Below, piece by piece: positions 5,755-30,156 of a stretch of DNA of 42,331 bases; the first letter of the stretch is position 1, and each line of letters opens with the position of its first letter. The position numbers were made by a program, and so were the translations under genes. Below the pieces are notes generated by a model that saw only the letters and a program-made list of their open reading frames with translations, was not told the DNA's origin and made no database searches. The stretch comes from Fimbriiglobus sp. (GTDB taxonomy: Bacteria; Planctomycetota; Planctomycetia; Gemmatales; Gemmataceae). The stretch spans positions 1 to 42,331 of the forward strand of contig JALOQR010000006.1 of the NCBI GenBank assembly GCA_025459365.1, written 5' to 3'.

Positions 5755-8700
5755 TTAGCCGACCGACACGCCGCCGGTAAAGGTCGGGTCGGTGGCGAAG
5801 AGGCTATTCATCGGGGCAAGCGACAGCCCCATGAACGACTTGACGTGTGGCCCACCGCCGGGGCCGGCACCGGTGATGATCTCGGCCCGGTTGTCGCCGT
5901 TCAGGTCGGCCGCCGCCACGCTCACTCCGCCAGTGAAGCCGGGATCGTAAGCGAAGAAGGTGACCAACTCGGAAGTAGTGGTGGCATCCCACGCCGACAC
6001 ACGCGGCCCACCGCCAGCACCGGCACCGGTGATGATCTCGGCCCGGCCGTCGCCGTTCAAGTCGGCCGCCGCCACGTTCACCCCGCCGGTGAACCCGGAA
6101 TCGTAGGCGAAGAAACTGGCCAACTCGCCGAGAGTTCTGCCGTGGAATGCCCTCACGTGGGGGCCGCCGCCGGCCCTGGCCCCAGTGACAATGTCGTTCT
6201 GCCCGTCGCCGTTCACGTCTCCCACGGCCACGTTCACACCACCGGTGAAGCCGGGGTCGTAGGCGAAGAAATCTTGCAGGGTGTCGAACGTCCGCCCGTC
6301 GAACACTTTCACCCGCGGGCCGGTGCCGGGACCGCTTCCGGCGCCCATCCCGACCACCATGTCGGGGGTTCCGTCGCCGTTCATATCGCCTGCAGCGATC
6401 GACACCCCACCGGTGAAGAACGGGCTGTAGGCGAAGAAGGTGGTCGTCTCCAACCCGGTCACGCCATCGAACACCGACACACGCGGACCACCGCCCGCCC
6501 CGGCTCCGACAAAGAAGTCGGGCACGCCGTCGGCGTTGATGTCGGCGATTGCGGTGGACAGCGGGCCGTTGAACCCGACGTACGGAACGAAGGTGCGGAT
6601 GACCTGTTGAGTGATCGGGTCGATCACTCGCACCTCGGAGCCGAGCCGGCTGGAGCCTGGGGTGGCCGCGAGGAAGGCGTTCTTGGGCGTGACCACCGGG
6701 GGCGGCACCGGCGGTACCACTGGCGGCGGGACTGTGCCCGGCGGCGGCACCGGCGGCGGCACGATCGGGGCCGGGAGAACCGTCACCACCAGTTGTTGGA
6801 AGCTCGGCGTAGTGACGTTGTTCGTGGCGGTCAGGTCAAGGGTGTAGGTGCCGGGGGTGGTCGGCGTGCCCGAGAGGGTCGCGGTGCCATCGCCGTTGCT
6901 CACCAGCAGCATGCCCGGCGGGAGCGTGCTCAGGGTGCTGATGGCGGCCGGCGGAAGTGCGACGGTGGTGACGGTGAACGCCCCGGCCACGGTGGCCTGG
7001 AACACCACTGATGTCGGCGAGGTGAACACCGGCGCCTGGTTGACCGTGACCGTCAGAGTTTGAGTGGCAGGCACCCCGACGCCGTTCGTGGCGGTCAGGT
7101 TGAGGGTGTAGGTGCCCGGGACGGACGGGAAACCACCCAGGGTCGCAGTACCGTCGCCGTTGTTGACCAGCATCATGCCGGGCGGGAAGGCACTGGTGGT
7201 GCTGATGGTGGCTGTTGGGGCGGCGGCGGTAGTGACGAAGAACACACTCGACTGCCCGGCGGTGAAGGTCACCGAGGGGGCCGAGGTGAACGAGGGCACA
7301 CGGTTCACCACCAGGGTGAACGGCTGAGTCGTCGCCGCAACGGCGTTGGTGGCCACAAGGTTGAACGTGAACGTGCCGATCTGCGGCAGCGGGCCGGTGA
7401 GAGTGGCCGTGCCGTCACCGTTGTCGGTGAGGGTCACCCCGCCCGGCAGTGGCGTGGCCGGGTTCACCGAGATAGCCGCGTTCGGCACGGCCGTGGTCGA
7501 GATCGTGAAGCTGTTCGCCGGGTTGTTGAACAGGAACGTGGCAGTGTTGGCCGAGGTGAACACTGGCGCACGGTGGACATTCAGCGTGAACGGTTGATCG
7601 ACAAACCCGGCCGCATTGGTCGCCCGGATGGTAAACGTGATTGTGGAGGGACTTCCGGGCGGTGGTGTGCCGGTCAGTTCAGCGAAGCCGGAGAAGTTGC
7701 TCAGCGTCACCCACGGCGGCAACGTCCCCACGATGCTCATGGTGGCGATCGGATTGGCATTCACCTTGATGCGGTGTAGGCCTGGTTGCCCCTCGATGAA
7801 CGTGGCGGTGTTGGGGCTGCTGATGGTCGGTACGGTGTTCGCCGGCGGGACGAACTCGAAAGCACCGATGTCCTTCATGCCCCACGAAGCCTGGTTCCGT
7901 TGGTCGAATTCACCAGTCGGTTGAAACCAGAACCCGTTGTTGATCGCGGGGCTACCAGGCAAGAGAGCGACGGTGGGGGTCAGTCCGCCGTTGTTGCTGA
8001 GGATCGGCTGGCCCAGAAAGTTCACCTGGATGCCGGGATTGAGCGCGCCGTTCACCACGTTCCCGCTCAGGTTTTCCAGGCTGTTGAAGGACGCCTGCAC
8101 CGGCATGGTGCCAACCAGGTTGAACCCACCGATGGTCCCGTTGGGCATCGTCAGGCCGCGGGCGATGGCTGGGTTGAGTTCGTTGAAGGCGATGTTCAGG
8201 TCGGCGTTGTTCAACCCGGTGCCGTTGTTGTTCAGAGCGACGATGGAGTTGAACAGGGTGAACCGCGTACCGACGGTGTCGATTGTCACCCCACCCGAGG
8301 AGTTTGGCTGGTTCGGGGCCGAAGCACTGTTGCCAACAATCGTGCTGTTGGTGATGGTCAGGTCGTTGCCGCCGCGGGAGAAGATCCCACCACCGACCCC
8401 GGCTTGGTTGTTGGCGATGGTGCTGCGGTCGATGGTGGCAGTCGTTCCGAACAGGTAAAGCCCGCCACCCTCGTTGGCGAACGCGTCTCCTGTGGTGTTT
8501 CCGGCCACCGTGGACGCGGTCATCACCAGATCGCCGTTGTTGTAGAAGTACACTCCACCGCCCCGCATGGTGGAGGCGTTCCCGCTCACCGTGCTGCGGT
8601 CGAGTTCAAGCGTGCCGAGGTCGAGGACGTTGATCCCGCCGCCGGTGTACTTTCCGCCAGCCGCAAAACCAGTGGCCACGTTGTTGTCGACCCTGCTGTT

Positions 8701-9588
8701 GATCACACTGATGCCGCCGCCCGAACTGATGCCCCCGCCGAATCCGCCAACCGTGCCGGTGGCTTTGGCCGTGTTGGCTTGCACTACGGCATTCTTAATG
8801 TCCACACCGGTGAGGGCGTTGATGCCGCCGCCGCCGCCGCCAATCGCGGTGTTACCGAAGATGTTTGCCCGCTGCGTTTCGGATGCGCCTTCGATCGTGA
8901 CAAACCCGTTCGCGACGTCGATCCCCCCACCGCTTCCGGCCTGTGCCGTGTTACCCGAGATGCTGACGTTGCCCGTGGCCGTTCGTGTGATCGTCACGGA
9001 GGGCCTGGGGAATGTGACCCCGCCGTTGCCCACGAAGATCCCGCCACCGCTGCCGCTGGCAGTGTTGTTCTGCACCGAAACGTCGGTCAGGTTCAACTCC
9101 CCGCGGGTGATATTGATTGCCCCGCCGTTGCCGGTCACGTTCCCGCCGATCAGGTTCATCCGCGTCAGGCTGAGGGTGCGGAAAGCAGGCGGCCCTGGCG
9201 GCGGCGGAGACGGCGGGAGGACGTTGAAGATGCGGGTGTTGTTCCCCACGCTGGTGGCGGCGTTGACGATCGTCACGCCGTTCGTTGGGCCAGTGATCTC
9301 CAGGTCCCGGTTGATCGGGAATTCCTGAGTGATGCTGATGGTGCCACCGGTGGCCGCCGCTCCGCCGAACACGATGCGATCGTTGAAGCCGAAACCTCCA
9401 GCCACCACATCCTTGTTGACGGGTTCCCCCTTGTTCATCGAGTCGATGGCTTCGCGCAGGGTCACGACCCCGTCTTCGGCAACGTTGTCGGCGAACGAGG
9501 TGACGGTGATGAGAGCCGGCACTTCCCGCGGTTCGAGAATCTCCAGAAACGGGCGGTTGGAGCGGGAGGACTTGGGGGAACGCGGCAT
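5755..9588 (-). CDS. Giant surface protein: beta-helix, Ig-like repeats, FG-GAP/VCBS repeats
   Basis: A 1277-aa extracellular protein. The N-terminus carries the planctomycete extracellular motif (FLEILEPREVPAL, residues 14-26) in place of a classical signal peptide. Residues 27-580 are a right-handed parallel beta-helix rich in GGGI..., TNSTIVGNSA and DRSTIANN turns, ending in a choice-of-anchor-Q-like segment (SPAINNG, DIGAFEF). Residues 583-937 hold about four putative Ig-like (He_PIG type) repeats of 85-90 aa with NGDGTATL and PGTYTLNLTATN. A proline-rich linker spans about 938-970. Residues 983-1277 hold six FG-GAP-like repeats (ADLNGDGRAEIITGAGAGGGPRV, FFAYDPGFTGGV). The likely role is adhesion or surface structure, with Ca-binding DxNxDG loops. 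No C-terminal anchor is visible. Confidence 0.85.
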   Translation of the reverse strand: MPRSPKSSRSNRPFLEILEPREVPALITVTSFADNVAEDGVVTLREAIDSMNKGEPVNKDVVAGGFGFNDRIVFGGAAATGGTISITQEFPINRDLEITGPTNGVTIVNAATSVGNNTRIFNVLPPSPPPPGPPAFRTLSLTRMNLIGGNVTGNGGAINITRGELNLTDVSVQNNTASGSGGGIFVGNGGVTFPRPSVTITRTATGNVSISGNTAQAGSGGGIDVANGFVTIEGASETQRANIFGNTAIGGGGGGINALTGVDIKNAVVQANTAKATGTVGGFGGGISSGGGISVINSRVDNNVATGFAAGGKYTGGGINVLDLGTLELDRSTVSGNASTMRGGGVYFYNNGDLVMTASTVAGNTTGDAFANEGGGLYLFGTTATIDRSTIANNQAGVGGGIFSRGGNDLTITNSTIVGNSASAPNQPNSSGGVTIDTVGTRFTLFNSIVALNNNGTGLNNADLNIAFNELNPAIARGLTMPNGTIGGFNLVGTMPVQASFNSLENLSGNVVNGALNPGIQVNFLGQPILSNNGGLTPTVALLPGSPAINNGFWFQPTGEFDQRNQASWGMKDIGAFEFVPPANTVPTISSPNTATFIEGQPGLHRIKVNANPIATMSIVGTLPPWVTLSNFSGFAELTGTPPPGSPSTITFTIRATNAAGFVDQPFTLNVHRAPVFTSANTATFLFNNPANSFTISTTAVPNAAISVNPATPLPGGVTLTDNGDGTATLTGPLPQIGTFTFNLVATNAVAATTQPFTLVVNRVPSFTSAPSVTFTAGQSSVFFVTTAAAPTATISTTSAFPPGMMLVNNGDGTATLGGFPSVPGTYTLNLTATNGVGVPATQTLTVTVNQAPVFTSPTSVVFQATVAGAFTVTTVALPPAAISTLSTLPPGMLLVSNGDGTATLSGTPTTPGTYTLDLTATNNVTTPSFQQLVVTVLPAPIVPPPVPPPGTVPPPVVPPVPPPVVTPKNAFLAATPGSSRLGSEVRVIDPITQQVIRTFVPYVGFNGPLSTAIADINADGVPDFFVGAGAGGGPRVSVFDGVTGLETTTFFAYSPFFTGGVSIAAGDMNGDGTPDMVVGMGAGSGPGTGPRVKVFDGRTFDTLQDFFAYDPGFTGGVNVAVGDVNGDGQNDIVTGARAGGGPHVRAFHGRTLGELASFFAYDSGFTGGVNVAAADLNGDGRAEIITGAGAGGGPRVSAWDATTTSELVTFFAYDPGFTGGVSVAAADLNGDNRAEIITGAGPGGGPHVKSFMGLSLAPMNSLFATDPTFTGGVSVG

Positions 9589-9899
9589 GGGGCAGCTCAG
9601 CGAAGGGGGGACGAATGCAGAAGGACGAAATTACCTAACTGTAACCTCACAACCACGCATAGGGCCGTTGGCGGTGTCAATTTTCACCGCAGCCTTCCTA
9701 TCTTCAACGGTGCAGCCCGGAAAACTCAACTCCAGACCGCCCGTATAAGACTCCCGATCCGCAGTCGGAGTTTCGCCCGGAGGAGCGGTTTTTCCGATTT
9801 CAACTACCTAGCCTTCCCGATCTGTCGGCCGTTCGGGATTTGCGTCCGGGAATACGACACACGCTGGTCTGTAGGATCTACACCTGTCCGCAAACTTTC
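9589..9899. other. 311-bp intergenic region, no gene seen
   Basis: This gap lies upstream of the surface-protein gene (start 9588, minus) and downstream of the gene at 9900-10979 (minus). It should hold the promoter of the former and the terminator of the latter. A weak hairpin (ACTCCCGA near 9750 with TCGGAGT near 9763) is present, but I cannot assign a -35/-10 pair with confidence. No repeat or RNA was recognised. Confidence 0.4.
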
Positions 9900-10979
9900 T
9901 CACCGCTTGGCCACCTCCCGGATCGCATCGTCGGGAAGGATGAACGAATTATCGATGAGTGCATCGCTCTCCACGACCAACTCCGGGTGGCGAACACCGA
10001 TCAGGGCGTGAACAGCGAAAATCTCCTGCACGCCGCTCTCGAACCGCACGAAGCCAACCACCTGCCCGGAACGGAGGTCGACCACCCACACCCCACACGC
10101 TCGCTTCTCGACCGGCAATTCGGTGATCGGCAGACCACTGAACGCAGCCGTTTCGCGGACCTGCGACAGCCCGACAAAGGCGAACGGGCCGACGAAGTCC
10201 AGCCCGCGGGTAAACCCTGGTAGGGTCGCCACCGGCACCAGTTGACCGCGGGCCGGATCAAGGTAGCCCAGCCCGCCGACGCCGGATTCGAGCACCCACA
10301 GTTTGCCGTCGTAGAGGCGGGGAGAGTGCGGCATACTCAGCCTGGCGGCGAGCACCTCGTGCGTGTCCACGTCGAGGAGCAATCCGCCGTCGCGCTTGTT
10401 TTCGCGCCACCCGCCGGCCGTATCGGTTGCACCCAGGCAGGTGACGTACTTGGGGCGGGCCGGATCGCCGGCCACGCACAGCCCGTTCAGGTGGCAGCGG
10501 TCTTCGGGAGCAAGGGCGGAGACGAACTTCGGCCGCCAGCGGGGGGTGAAGCTGTGCATGCGGTCGAGCGTGCAAAGGCAGGAAAAGCGAGTGTTCACCA
10601 CCCAGAGTTCATCCCCAGCCCAGGCGATGTCGTGCCCGCGGATGTCACCCGTGACGTGCATCGCCCGCGGCAGGTAACAGGCGTCGTGCGATCCTGGTGG
10701 GTTGATCTTGGCCGCCGCAGCCGGTTGATTATGAAACTCCCACACGGCCGATTTGGTGCCGATCGCCAACCGGCCGCCGTTCACCGCCAACCCCATCGGG
10801 GCGGGCAGGTCGCGGAAGTGTGTGTTCAGCTTGCTTCCCTGGGCGCGGAGGACCACCAACTTACCGGCCTGGTAGGTCGTCACCAGGAGCGAGACGCCAA
10901 GTTGAGAGAGCAGGTCGGGCAAGCTGGTGGTGAACACGCTCTCGAGGGGGCTTTCGGCGGGCGGGATGTCGGCAGACAT
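9900..10979 (-). CDS. TIGR03032-family protein (beta-propeller-like)
   Basis: A 359-aa cytoplasmic protein without a signal peptide. It resembles the conserved family TIGR03032/DUF4915: the SQLGVSLLVTTYQAGKLVVLR opening, the AMGLAV-type strand (here APMGLAVNGGRLAIGT), HDIAWAGDELWVVNTRFSCLCTLD, HLNGLCV, GLLLDV, MPHSPRLYDGKLWVLESG, LPGFTRGLDF and FAFVGLSQVRE all follow in the order typical of that family. These strands suggest a six- or seven-bladed propeller. The biochemical function of the family is not established to my knowledge; members often sit near TPR or sulfotransferase genes, which are not seen here. It is divergent from the small secreted protein at 11085, with a 105-bp shared upstream region. 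Confidence 0.8.
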   Translation of the reverse strand: MSADIPPAESPLESVFTTSLPDLLSQLGVSLLVTTYQAGKLVVLRAQGSKLNTHFRDLPAPMGLAVNGGRLAIGTKSAVWEFHNQPAAAAKINPPGSHDACYLPRAMHVTGDIRGHDIAWAGDELWVVNTRFSCLCTLDRMHSFTPRWRPKFVSALAPEDRCHLNGLCVAGDPARPKYVTCLGATDTAGGWRENKRDGGLLLDVDTHEVLAARLSMPHSPRLYDGKLWVLESGVGGLGYLDPARGQLVPVATLPGFTRGLDFVGPFAFVGLSQVRETAAFSGLPITELPVEKRACGVWVVDLRSGQVVGFVRFESGVQEIFAVHALIGVRHPELVVESDALIDNSFILPDDAIREVAKR

Positions 10980-27295: not shown

Positions 27296-27344
27296 GAGGC
27301 GAAGGGGTGCGAGAGAACTGCACTCCGAACGATCTGAGTATCAC

Positions 27345-27380
27345 GAATCGCCGCACAGCAACACGCGACCTGGTTCGGCG
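27345..27380 (+). mobile_element. IS110-type element remnant: right-end fragment (copy a)
   Basis: GAATCGCC (27345-27352), an 8-bp variable stretch and a 20-22 bp word (27359-27380) match positions 28057-28092, where they follow the deleted transposase. The 22-bp word is identical in both places. Here no transposase precedes it, so only the right end survives. It stops 9 bp before the stop codon of the 142-aa minus-strand gene. Confidence 0.65.
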
Positions 27381-27389
27381 TGCCTTTAG

Positions 27390-27818
27390 CTACGCGGGCG
27401 GCTCTGCCCACGCGGCCGACGGCTCTCGGTTGGCGAGCACGTCGATGGTGTTGCTGAGTGTGTACAAGAAGTAGTGAGTGAACGACCCGCGGAAACCCAG
27501 CAACTGCGAGTCCGAGAACCCGGCCACCCACTCAGACCCCTCGACCACCATGCACGGGTGCGGCCCCCACGCCCAGCCCGGTGATGCTTCGACGCCCGAC
27601 TCCTTCCCGAAACGTGGGTGAGTGTGTTCCTCGTGAACCCGGTAGGCGAGGGCCGACCGGCCGAAAGACAGCCGGAGCGTGCCGTACTCGCGGCCGTCGG
27701 GATACACGCCTGGCCGCAGCCAGACCGTCAACCCGTTGGCGCCGTCGCGCAACTCGTAGTCGCCGAAGAACGGAGGCAGGTCGGGCAGCGGCTCCCACGA
27801 TCGGTACGCCTGCACCAT
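27390..27818 (-). CDS. Hypothetical protein between IS110-type element ends
   Basis: A 142-aa soluble protein with no recognised family. It has aromatic/glycine-rich strands (PFFGDYELRDG, LTVWLRPGVYPDGREYGTLRLSFG, WAWGPHPCMVV, SEWVAGFSDSQLLGF, FTHYFLYTLSN) and looks beta-rich. Its stop is 9 bp from the element right end (27380) and its start is 14 bp from the next element left end (27833). It is thus boxed between pieces of the same element, like the gene at 28100-29956. The frame stays open upstream of the ATG into the element, so the protein could be N-terminally truncated by the insertion. There is no signal peptide. Confidence 0.55.
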   Translation of the reverse strand: MVQAYRSWEPLPDLPPFFGDYELRDGANGLTVWLRPGVYPDGREYGTLRLSFGRSALAYRVHEEHTHPRFGKESGVEASPGWAWGPHPCMVVEGSEWVAGFSDSQLLGFRGSFTHYFLYTLSNTIDVLANREPSAAWAEPPA

Positions 27819-27832
27819 CGGGAAGGCCTCCT

Positions 27833-28092
27833 CCGCCGAAAGAATCCCTGCAAGCCGTGGTGGTCGTGTCGCGGGGTCGCCCGCGTTCGGAGGCTTGCGA
27901 TGCGTGACACCATTCTGGCGCTCGACCTGGGGCGGTACAAGAGCGTGGCGGGCAAACCGAAGATGCAGGCCATCGGCGCCTGCATGCGGAAGCTGGTCAT
28001 GATCTGCTACGGGGTACTGAAAAACCGTACCCCATTCGACACGAACTAGTCATCCAGAATCGCCAATTGACAACACGCGACCTGGTTCGGCG
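27833..28092 (+). mobile_element. IS110-type element, internally deleted, full-length ends (copy b)
   Basis: About 260 bp. It contains a left end (from CCGCCGAAAGAATCC), a transposase remnant (27900-28049) and a right end with GAATCGCC and the 22-bp word at 28071-28092. The left end and the first 80 or so bases of the remnant are repeated at 30007-30156 with only scattered changes; the right end is repeated at 27345-27380. The complete form would be an IS110-family element, which moves by a DEDD transposase guided by an RNA from a non-coding end. Here only a miniature derivative is left. Confidence 0.75.
27900..28049 (+). pseudogene. IS110-family transposase remnant (N-terminus fused to C-terminus)
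   Basis: The 49-codon frame joins an N-terminus of IS110 type (MRDTILALDLGRYKSVA, the start of the DEDD domain) straight to a C-terminus of the same family (KMQAIGACMRKLVMICYGVL, ending FDTN). Almost the whole catalytic and transposase_20 body is missing, so it cannot be active. The in-frame junction is shared with the second copy at 30073, so the deletion predates their separation. Confidence 0.75.
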
Positions 28093-28099
28093 CCCGGAT

Positions 28100-29956
28100 C
28101 TACCTCGTCGTTGGCACGCCGCTGTACGACGCGAATGGCCCGTCGCCCCGCTTGACTTCTTTCGTCTCGCGGTTGCGAGTCTCCCGGATCATCACTGCGT
28201 AGGGGTCGCCGTTGTAGCAGACTTCGCCGAAGAAGGCCCATACCGACGAGTTGTCGTTCACGAACATCGGGGCGAGTTTCCCGGCGGTGGTCGTGTAACT
28301 GAACCCGCCGAGGATTTCCGTGCGCCCGCCGCCCGAGGTGTAGGCGAGCGTGCCGCCGCGTTCGGTTTTGTAGCCAAGCACCCAGACGTCGCCGGCATCG
28401 TTGGTCAGGTGGGTGCCCTCGTTCTCGATGTTGAGCTGCCGGGCCCAGACCCGCTGCTTCCGGAAACGGAAGTTGTCCCCCACGACGTCTTCGAGGAACA
28501 CCTCCCCTCCCTCGCTGCGCGGTGTGCCTTGGATGGTGTGGCTTTCCATGCTCCGGAGTACGACCGTCCGTTTGGTATCGATCTCGATGCCGCCGCCTAA
28601 ATGGGCAAAGTGTTCCAGACAAACCGTCGGTGAGTCGCCGTCGGCGATACGGAAGTTGATGAGCTTGCGCTGGCCATAGTTTAGATGGCCGCCGAGACCA
28701 ACAATCCGCTCGACCTTGCCGCGAACGATGATGGTTGAGCTGCTCTTGTAATGGCCAGGCAGAAACACCGTTGTCGCGCCGGAATCGATCGCTTTCTGGA
28801 TGGCGGTTGCCGAATCACTCTTTGCGGTTGGGTCGGCCCCGAACTCATCCACAACGGCCCACTTCGTGGGAGTCTCCCAATGGACCGATGGCGTTTCCTT
28901 GACTGGCAGCCTCAGCGAGCCGGGGCGGGACGGGAAGGCGGTTGTCGCCGCGTGTGACGAGTACTCCTTGAGGTCCGGACCGAGACTACCAAGTTTGTCC
29001 TCGCCCTCGATCCGGTACGCCGCCGCGAAGTCGGGCGTTTTCAGATCCGCCAAGGCACGCTTGTAGCCTGTGGTCTTCACATCACGCAGAAAGATCAACC
29101 CGCCGTTGAAGTTCACGATTGCCGGATGGTTCGCCCCGCCCTTGCGGCCTGAGATCGTGGCGTCAGTGAGCATCAGCCGGCCGTAGGTGCTGATGGCCGG
29201 AACGGCGTTTTCGCTCACTAGGCCACGAATACTGACGCTCTGCCCTTCGTTGGTGAAGCCGAACTGGCTTTGCCCGCGGAGCGTCAGATTCTCAAAGGTC
29301 TGGCTGTTGACCGCACGCGAAGTCGTGACCCCTCGTGCAAAGCCGAGCACCTCGCAGTCTTTCACCAGGAGCGGCCCGTTCATGTCGCGATGCGAAAGGT
29401 CGAGCCCGACTGCACCGCTGCCTTCGGCGGCCACGAATCGGCAGTCTCGCACCGCGCCTGTGTTGTTCGAGTAGAACTGCAAACCAATCGCGCCGGGATT
29501 GCGTCGGCCTACATCGAAGGTCAGGTTCTCGACGTAGTTGTGGAACCAGTCGGCGCTGCCGAACCCGCCGCACCACATGATTGCCGCTGGTTTCTTATCG
29601 TCGGTGAAGGTGTTGTCCGCCAAGCGGATCACGGTCGTGTCGCGGTCGGCTCCGCGGAGAATCGTCTTTCCCCAGTTGTCGTGCTTGGCAAACGTCTTCG
29701 GCCAGGTGAGCGTTGCTGAGACGAGATACGTTCCCTTGGGGAAATAGAGCACCCGGTGCCAGCCGACGTTCTCATTCAGTGCCCGCTGGATCGCCTTCGT
29801 GTCATCGGAGACGCCGTCGCCCTTGGCGGAATAGGGGGCACGGGTCACATCAACGACGTTTGCATGCTGCGGATAACCTTGGCTCCCCGCGAGCAGATTG
29901 GCCGGGTAAGCGAGTATGGTCGCGATGAGTAGGCATTGCGCAGGGGAAGGGTGCAT
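28100..29956 (-). CDS. Secreted pectate-lyase-superfamily (GH55-like) protein
   Basis: A 618-aa protein with a signal peptide (MHPSPAQCLLIATILAYPANLLAGS). It has two right-handed beta-helix units of the Pectate_lyase_3/GH55 type. The first starts near residue 34 (VDVTRAPYSAKGDGVSDDTKAIQRAL) and the second near residue 370 (VDEFGADPTAKSDSATAIQKAID). The D-x-T-x-A-I-Q signature marks each. Beta-helix turns follow (VENLTFDVGRR, GAVRDCRFVAAEGSG). GH55 enzymes attack beta-1,3-glucans; relatives act on other polysaccharides, so the substrate is open. Its stop is 7 bp from the element right end (28092) and its start 50 bp from another left end (30007). It is probably exported. Confidence 0.8.
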   Translation of the reverse strand: MHPSPAQCLLIATILAYPANLLAGSQGYPQHANVVDVTRAPYSAKGDGVSDDTKAIQRALNENVGWHRVLYFPKGTYLVSATLTWPKTFAKHDNWGKTILRGADRDTTVIRLADNTFTDDKKPAAIMWCGGFGSADWFHNYVENLTFDVGRRNPGAIGLQFYSNNTGAVRDCRFVAAEGSGAVGLDLSHRDMNGPLLVKDCEVLGFARGVTTSRAVNSQTFENLTLRGQSQFGFTNEGQSVSIRGLVSENAVPAISTYGRLMLTDATISGRKGGANHPAIVNFNGGLIFLRDVKTTGYKRALADLKTPDFAAAYRIEGEDKLGSLGPDLKEYSSHAATTAFPSRPGSLRLPVKETPSVHWETPTKWAVVDEFGADPTAKSDSATAIQKAIDSGATTVFLPGHYKSSSTIIVRGKVERIVGLGGHLNYGQRKLINFRIADGDSPTVCLEHFAHLGGGIEIDTKRTVVLRSMESHTIQGTPRSEGGEVFLEDVVGDNFRFRKQRVWARQLNIENEGTHLTNDAGDVWVLGYKTERGGTLAYTSGGGRTEILGGFSYTTTAGKLAPMFVNDNSSVWAFFGEVCYNGDPYAVMIRETRNRETKEVKRGDGPFASYSGVPTTR

Positions 29957-30006
29957 CTCGAATCGCTCACTTCGGTGAGGGGCGCAACTTCCGATGACTT
30001 TGGTTG

Positions 30007-30156
30007 CCGCCGAAAGAATCCATGCAGCCGTGGTGGTCGTGTCGCGGGGTCGCCTGCTTCGGGCGGCTTGCGATGCGTGACACCATTCTGGCCTTCGACC
30101 TGGGGCGGTGCAAGAGCGTGGCGGGCAAGCCGAAGATGCAGGCCATCAGCGCCTGA
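30007..30156 (+). mobile_element. IS110-type element remnant: left end and start of transposase (copy c)
   Basis: It begins with the same CCGCCGAAAGAATCC as copy b and runs parallel to it through CAGCCGTGGTGG, the GTGTCGCGGGGTCGCC block and the transposase start. The match stops around 30156, 12 bp before the end of the Ser/Thr kinase gene. It has no right end. The orientation is the same as copies a and b. Confidence 0.7.
30073..30156 (+). pseudogene. IS110-family transposase remnant, second copy (truncated)
   Basis: A 27-codon frame beginning MRDTILAFDLGRCKSVA and joined to KPKMQAIS, then a stop at 30154-30156. The same internal deletion as at 27900 is present, but the C-terminal MRKL segment is cut off. 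It is non-functional. Confidence 0.7.

Follow-up and report, generated by a model that had tools for sequence, protein, structure and literature searches.

A probable integron cassette remnant in Fimbriiglobus with attC joints replaced by a fusion of two IS110-superfamily elements

Two neighbouring genes in a draft genome of Fimbriiglobus sp. (5.0 Mb, 471 contigs, ~90% complete) very probably represent a short remnant of a sedentary integron cassette array whose attC joints were hit by two different insertion sequences – here called type A and type B – and then collapsed by deletion. The relevant part of the window (the whole 42,331-nucleotide stretch analysed) reads on the minus strand as a kinase gene, a truncated joint, a GH55-like gene, a full joint, a gene for a 142-aa protein, a truncated joint, and the end of a TPR gene that lies on the other strand. 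The features below are given in plus-strand coordinates, with cassette and attC assignments as our best reading.

27338–27368, plus strand: left-truncated remnant of a type B right end (stop-codon region and 3' non-coding end), the third joint of the array
27369–27379, minus strand: putative attC R'' box and spacer, GCCGAACCAGG, after the 142-aa gene; the same as the first 11 nt of the genome's three intact attC (contig C165)
27390–27818, minus strand: putative cassette gene 1, an ORF for a 142-aa orphan protein
27835–27841, plus strand: putative attC R' box, recognized from its sequence (on the minus strand TTTCGGC, then GGAGGAGG, then the ATG of gene 1)
27842–27948, plus strand: left end and first ~17 transposase codons (ATG at 27900) of a type A, IS1111-like element, assigned by similarity to type A elements
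27947–28080, plus strand: last ~45 transposase codons and right end of a type B, IS110-like element, fused in frame to A (stop at 28047–28049)
28081–28091, minus strand: putative attC R'' box and spacer, GCCGAACCAGG, after the GH55-like gene; the same as the starts of the C165 attC
28100–29956, minus strand: putative cassette gene 2, a 618-aa pectate-lyase-fold protein (PF12708), GH55-like by a weak match to a solved beta-1,3-glucanase
30009–30015, plus strand: putative attC R' box (minus strand TTTCGGC) upstream of the GH55-like gene, recognized from its sequence
30016–30156, plus strand: second copy of the A/B fusion (A left end, A/B junction and ~30 bp of B), right-truncated, 92% identical to 27833–27982

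The joints are copies of one repeat. The middle copy (27833–28092) is complete, the right copy (30007–30156) lacks its right side, and the left copy (27338–27380) lacks its left side. Alignment within the window gave 92% identity between 27853–27982 and 30026–30155, 95% between 27833–27852 and 30007–30026, and 75% over 52 nt between 27329–27380 and 28041–28092, the last 22 nt being identical; an exact copy of GCCGAACCAGGTCGCGTGTTG lies on the minus strand at the 27338–27368 remnant. Each gene has its stop about 8–10 bp from a right end and its start about 14–52 bp from a left end. The repeats and gene distances reported in the initial annotation are thus borne out by the alignment across 27329–30155 and by the ORF coordinates. 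This adjacency extends beyond the window: across this genome and the family, 15 of 27 right ends abut the stop of an opposite-strand ORF, compared with 16% of random positions, and 18 of 20 left ends abut an opposite-strand ORF start, compared with 42%. Gene adjacency of the element ends therefore exceeds chance.

The repeat had been interpreted as a single, internally deleted IS110-type element that carried the genes. We searched the 260-bp element against 95 family genomes and observed that its matches fall into two classes, left-half and right-half, which meet at element position ~115–121 and are never joined outside the source genome. Full-length loci identify the source of each class. Left-half matches come from type A elements, whose transposase starts M..DTILAIDLGRYKSVA and ends ..RKKPAIVALARKLLVRCWAMLRDGKPWRADP, and right-half matches from type B elements, whose transposase starts MGT..FVGIDVSKKTLDAC and ends ..GKPKMQAVGACMRKLVMICYGVLKNRAPFDP. 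Both transposases contain PF01548 and PF02371 and pass NF033542, the model for IS110 family RNA-guided transposases (258.6 bits for the type A protein of locus L069, which also has PF01548 and PF02371). The left half of the window element is 73–80% identical to type A elements (L037, L038, L041, L043 and L053), with matches ending at element position 116–121, and the right half is 81–84% identical to type B elements (L028/L059, L050/L061 and L032), with matches starting at 114–115. The transposase relic reads MRDTILALDLGRYKSVA followed by GKPKMQAIGACMRKLVMICYGVLKNRTPFDTN, an A start joined in frame to a B end, and the junction falls at element positions 114–118, within a GGCG common to both parents. 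Among the relatives' loci we found no full-length parent that combines an A start with a B end; the left end and transposase start of the window element derive from A, and the transposase end and right end from B. The element is thus a chimaera of two different IS110-superfamily elements. An internal junction common to the copies was correctly recognized in the initial annotation, but its halves come from two elements, each targeting one attC arm, and the idea of a single defective element carrying the genes finds no support.

We scanned the relatives' loci for R''/R' boxes enclosing a foldable middle and found many sites of 90–110 nt, lying between same-strand genes and built as GCCGAAC..GCTGCAGCAGACC..loop..GGCTGCTGAGC..GTTCGGC. 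These predicted hairpins are laid out like integron attC. With 19 of the relatives' sites as its input, a covariance model gave 75 matches in 20 loci, many of them in rows; some matches count one site on both strands. Separately, a near-perfect 127-nt inverted repeat, GCCTAACGTAGACCCGGGCGGG...GTTAGGC, lies at 1642–1768 of locus L057 (genome G009, contig C2); it has attC-like outer boxes but a full-length stem, unlike normal attC.

Types A and B occupy different arms of these sites, and both lie antisense to the cassette genes. Type B lies in the R''-L'' spacer: a gene stop is followed by GCCGAAC(A/C)AGG and then by the B right end, and the B left end adjoins the rest of the attC, ..GCGCTGCAGCAGACC, in all nine cases read. 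Type A lies at R': its left end is followed by (G/T)TTCGGC, a GGAGG-like site and the next gene start, and at L069 an attC ending ..GGTGAGCAGGGTCG runs directly into the A right end. Type A carries ~370 bp of non-coding DNA after the transposase (L069, L061), as in IS1111-like elements, with insertion on the G|TTCGGC side; type B carries ~170 bp before the transposase, as in IS110-like elements. This placement matches the published distinction between IS110 and IS1111 elements (PMC11187229), and targeting of attC by both is presumably RNA-guided.

The window's repeats bear the same boxes. Each 'right end' closes with CCTGGTTCGGC (~11 nt) and each 'left end' opens with GCCGAAA (~7 nt); we read these bases as probable R'' and R' boxes of target attC rather than IS ends. 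All three intact attC of the source genome begin GCCGAACCAGG, the same 11 nt that lie just outside the two B right ends of the window. The ends described in the initial annotation are real repeats whose outermost bases would belong to attC. Consistent with this, intact attC sites have the layout GTTCGGC-GGAGGAGG-ATG, to which TTTCGGC-GGAGGAGG-ATG upstream of gene 1 corresponds, and the joints of both window genes have GCCGAAC and TTTCGGC boxes, the genes running head to tail in one orientation. The intact attC form a canonical three-site array on C165 (at 447, 899 and 1315, ~430 bp apart, 80–88 bits), and the genome encodes an integron integrase on another contig than the window's (C43, 409–1356; TIGR02249, 451 bits against a cut-off of 265). 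In its three congeners, attC matches number between 9 and 32. Contig C43 also contains, at 9525–9786 of locus L021, a low-complexity Asp/Glu-rich ORF with irregular 9–15 nt GAC/GAT/GAA repeats.

The arrangement from which the window's element would have formed is present in a relative. In the complete, single-contig genome G051 (L061, ~7840–10520), one attC holds intact A and intact B between a gene ending before it and a gene starting after it: ..GGGTAGCAAAGGCAC and GCCGAACCAGG precede B, the attC body runs from GCGCTGCACACGGACCCC to GAGCCGGTGAGCGGGGTCG, and A is followed by TTTCGGCGAGAGAAGGCGGAGG... The layout is thus stop, GCCGAACCAGG, B, attC body, A, TTTCGGC and start, and the attC body (9070–9159) scores 20.6 bits with the attC model. 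We regard this locus as the predicted intact precursor of the window's element. A second doubly occupied attC (30 bits) lies at 7420–9490 of locus L071 on contig C2 of genome G026; its type A lacks most of the transposase, and it is an intermediate stage of collapse.

These loci suggest how the window could have arisen. Each joint of the two head-to-tail cassette genes would be a former attC site, with B entering the R''-L'' spacer next to a gene stop and A entering at R' next to the following gene's start. A deletion would then join codon ~17 of A to the last ~45 codons of B at the GGCG microhomology. Both transposases would be lost together with the attC hairpin, while the R'' and R' boxes would stay outside. 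Carried out on the G051-type structure, this deletion yields the window element with attC boxes outside. Both elements probably hit the same attC rather than neighbouring ones, though a deletion between an A and a B in neighbouring attC sites, with loss of the intervening cassette, would give the same product and may have occurred instead. Since A and B each target one attC arm, our preferred reading of the 142-aa gene and the GH55-like gene is as putative integron cassettes flanked by IS; no attC body survives in the window, and their cassette status therefore derives from boxes, spacing and homologous loci. Of the initial annotation, the cassette-like array, the single gene orientation and the shared junction are supported, while construction of the array by an IS110 derivative gives way to an A/B chimaera within attC.

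The array is a remnant and not a functional integron array. The attC model has no match in the window up to E=1, and only the outer boxes remain, without a hairpin. The fused element folds no better than shuffled sequence (minimum energy z -0.75). With the hairpin gone and no compensating fold, the scarred cassettes have probably lost their mobility and would now be frozen.

Several points weigh against the integron-remnant reading. No attC body survives in the window, the closest GH55-like homologues have no attC beside them, and the genome is a draft. In addition, a single deletion does not by itself account for finding the same fused junction at no fewer than three positions: a scar beside a 123-aa gene on another contig (C271, 4848–5095) has it in common with the middle and right copies, at 86–93% identity. 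Further remnants differ. On C445 (L022, 100–900), a degenerate integron integrase is found next to an A/B remnant whose junction is different; C275 has an A left end only; and C128 (L025, 2646–3260) has a B-like right end, a 118-aa gene whose stop lies inside GCCTAAC, the consensus attC R'', and a diverged A-like left end. The C445 integrase remnant is 62% identical over 37 aa to the C43 integrase, and C445 may represent a dead second integron platform. The initial annotation had proposed examining element copies elsewhere, with copies never adjacent to genes counting against it; the copies found likewise adjoin genes, because attC does, so this check did not refute the initial annotation, and the same reason accounts for IS ends adjoining genes in general.

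Two explanations of the shared junction keep the integron setting. The first is recurrent deletion: several doubly occupied attC would each have lost the DNA between A and B independently, always at the same microhomology. The GGCG at the junction fits this idea, and the different junction on C445 implies that such deletions recur; the same junction arising three times from a 4-nt microhomology is improbable, however, and we consider this account unlikely. Alternatively, the A/B fusion could be a small non-autonomous element, moved in trans and re-inserted into several attC. Its sharing of one junction, at the identities given above, beside different genes at three positions is what such movement predicts, but an A left end and a B right end are joined by no known single transposase and guide RNA, no exact match to the fused junction and no fused copies were seen in other species' genomes, and no full-length A or B was seen in the source draft; movement of this kind is quite improbable. 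The shared junction in three copies may reflect a scarred attC copied with or between cassettes, conversion, movement of the fusion, or recurrent deletion. Because one rare junction marks attC at three or more different cassettes, it may record copying of an IS-scarred attC between genes, tracing attC acquisition, or IntI may still handle the scar via the R boxes; we put these forward as speculation that is probably wrong.

Explanations that dispense with attC fare worse. A defective IS110 derivative that builds [element + gene] units and mobilizes genes on its own is suggested by the repeated order of right end, gene and left end, seen also on C128 (RE-like, 118-aa gene, LE-like). The chimaeric origin of the element, the attC boxes at its outermost bases and the single full-length copies of A and B that occupy attC elsewhere, at equal distances from genes, all argue against it, and the doubly occupied attC in G051 and G026 largely refute it, leaving it highly improbable. 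Chance insertion of an IS110-type element beside unrelated chromosomal genes, with no integron, would fit the lack of an intact attC in the window but is contradicted by the adjacency statistics, by R''/R' boxes identical to those of the genome's attC and by the precursors in relatives, and can hardly be credited.

The integron-remnant reading places the window among known systems. Planctomycetes integrons are known and their attC sites already modelled (PMC8352920). As in sedentary chromosomal integron arrays, the window's single genes run head to tail, each stop lying next to R'' and each start, preceded by a ribosome-binding site, shortly past R', and the source genome has an integrase and a canonical attC array elsewhere. 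Unlike in such arrays, a fused IS scar of ~240 bp stands in place of the attC bodies, so searches based on attC miss these joints. The IS1111-attC group (ISKpn4, ISPst6, ISPa25) targets one end of attC (PMC11187229, which cites Tetu and Holmes 2008 and Post and Hall 2009 on these elements). Type A resembles this group in its IS110/IS1111 transposase, long 3' non-coding region, fixed one-end attC insertion and single orientation, but occurs in a different host group, its guide RNA is presumed, and its partner, type B, targets the opposite attC arm and has a long, IS110-like non-coding region upstream. IS110/IS621 bridge-RNA elements encode a DEDD transposase with PF01548 and PF02371 (PMC11208160). 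A and B share this transposase, and B the non-coding region 5' of it, whereas the window copies are dead, the target is attC and a guide RNA is only presumed.

The components – integrons and IS1111-attC elements – are known; the occupation of both attC arms and the collapse to a shared fused scar appear to be new. In the literature covered, which took in few subscription papers, we found no description of an IS110-type partner on the other attC arm or of a fused-scar attC; this is weak evidence of novelty. The arrangement shows two IS110-superfamily elements dividing one attC, with an arm for each, in bacteria that have been little studied, and it would provide a route by which integron arrays freeze and escape attC-based searches. 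The shared fusion junction could also serve as a natural tag for the spread of attC between genes, an open question in integron biology.

The two genes themselves differ in their distribution. The 142-aa protein has no Pfam or NCBIfam match and no homologue in the 95 family genomes or in a collection of 84,980 species. The 618-aa protein contains a pectate-lyase-type domain (PF12708), and a weak match to a solved beta-1,3-glucanase is the basis of its GH55-like label. Its homologues are patchy, occurring in 16 of the 95 family genomes; the closest (62%, G010/G011, another genus) and those in its own genus (54%) are not beside attC. A 36% relative in G090 (C871) has a complete attC before it and the 5' arm of another attC after it, so a GH55-like gene can occur as a cassette in the family. 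In G001–G003, the three remaining species of the genus, the homologues of the flanking TPR and kinase genes are on separate contigs, neither having an attC or IS next to it; a counterpart of the site lacking the block was therefore not found. At locus L080 (G002, C105), attC occur at 1469–1564 and 2146–2236, no more than about 4 kb from the flanking kinase's homologue; they are not syntenic with the window array and perhaps mark a recurrent integron neighbourhood.
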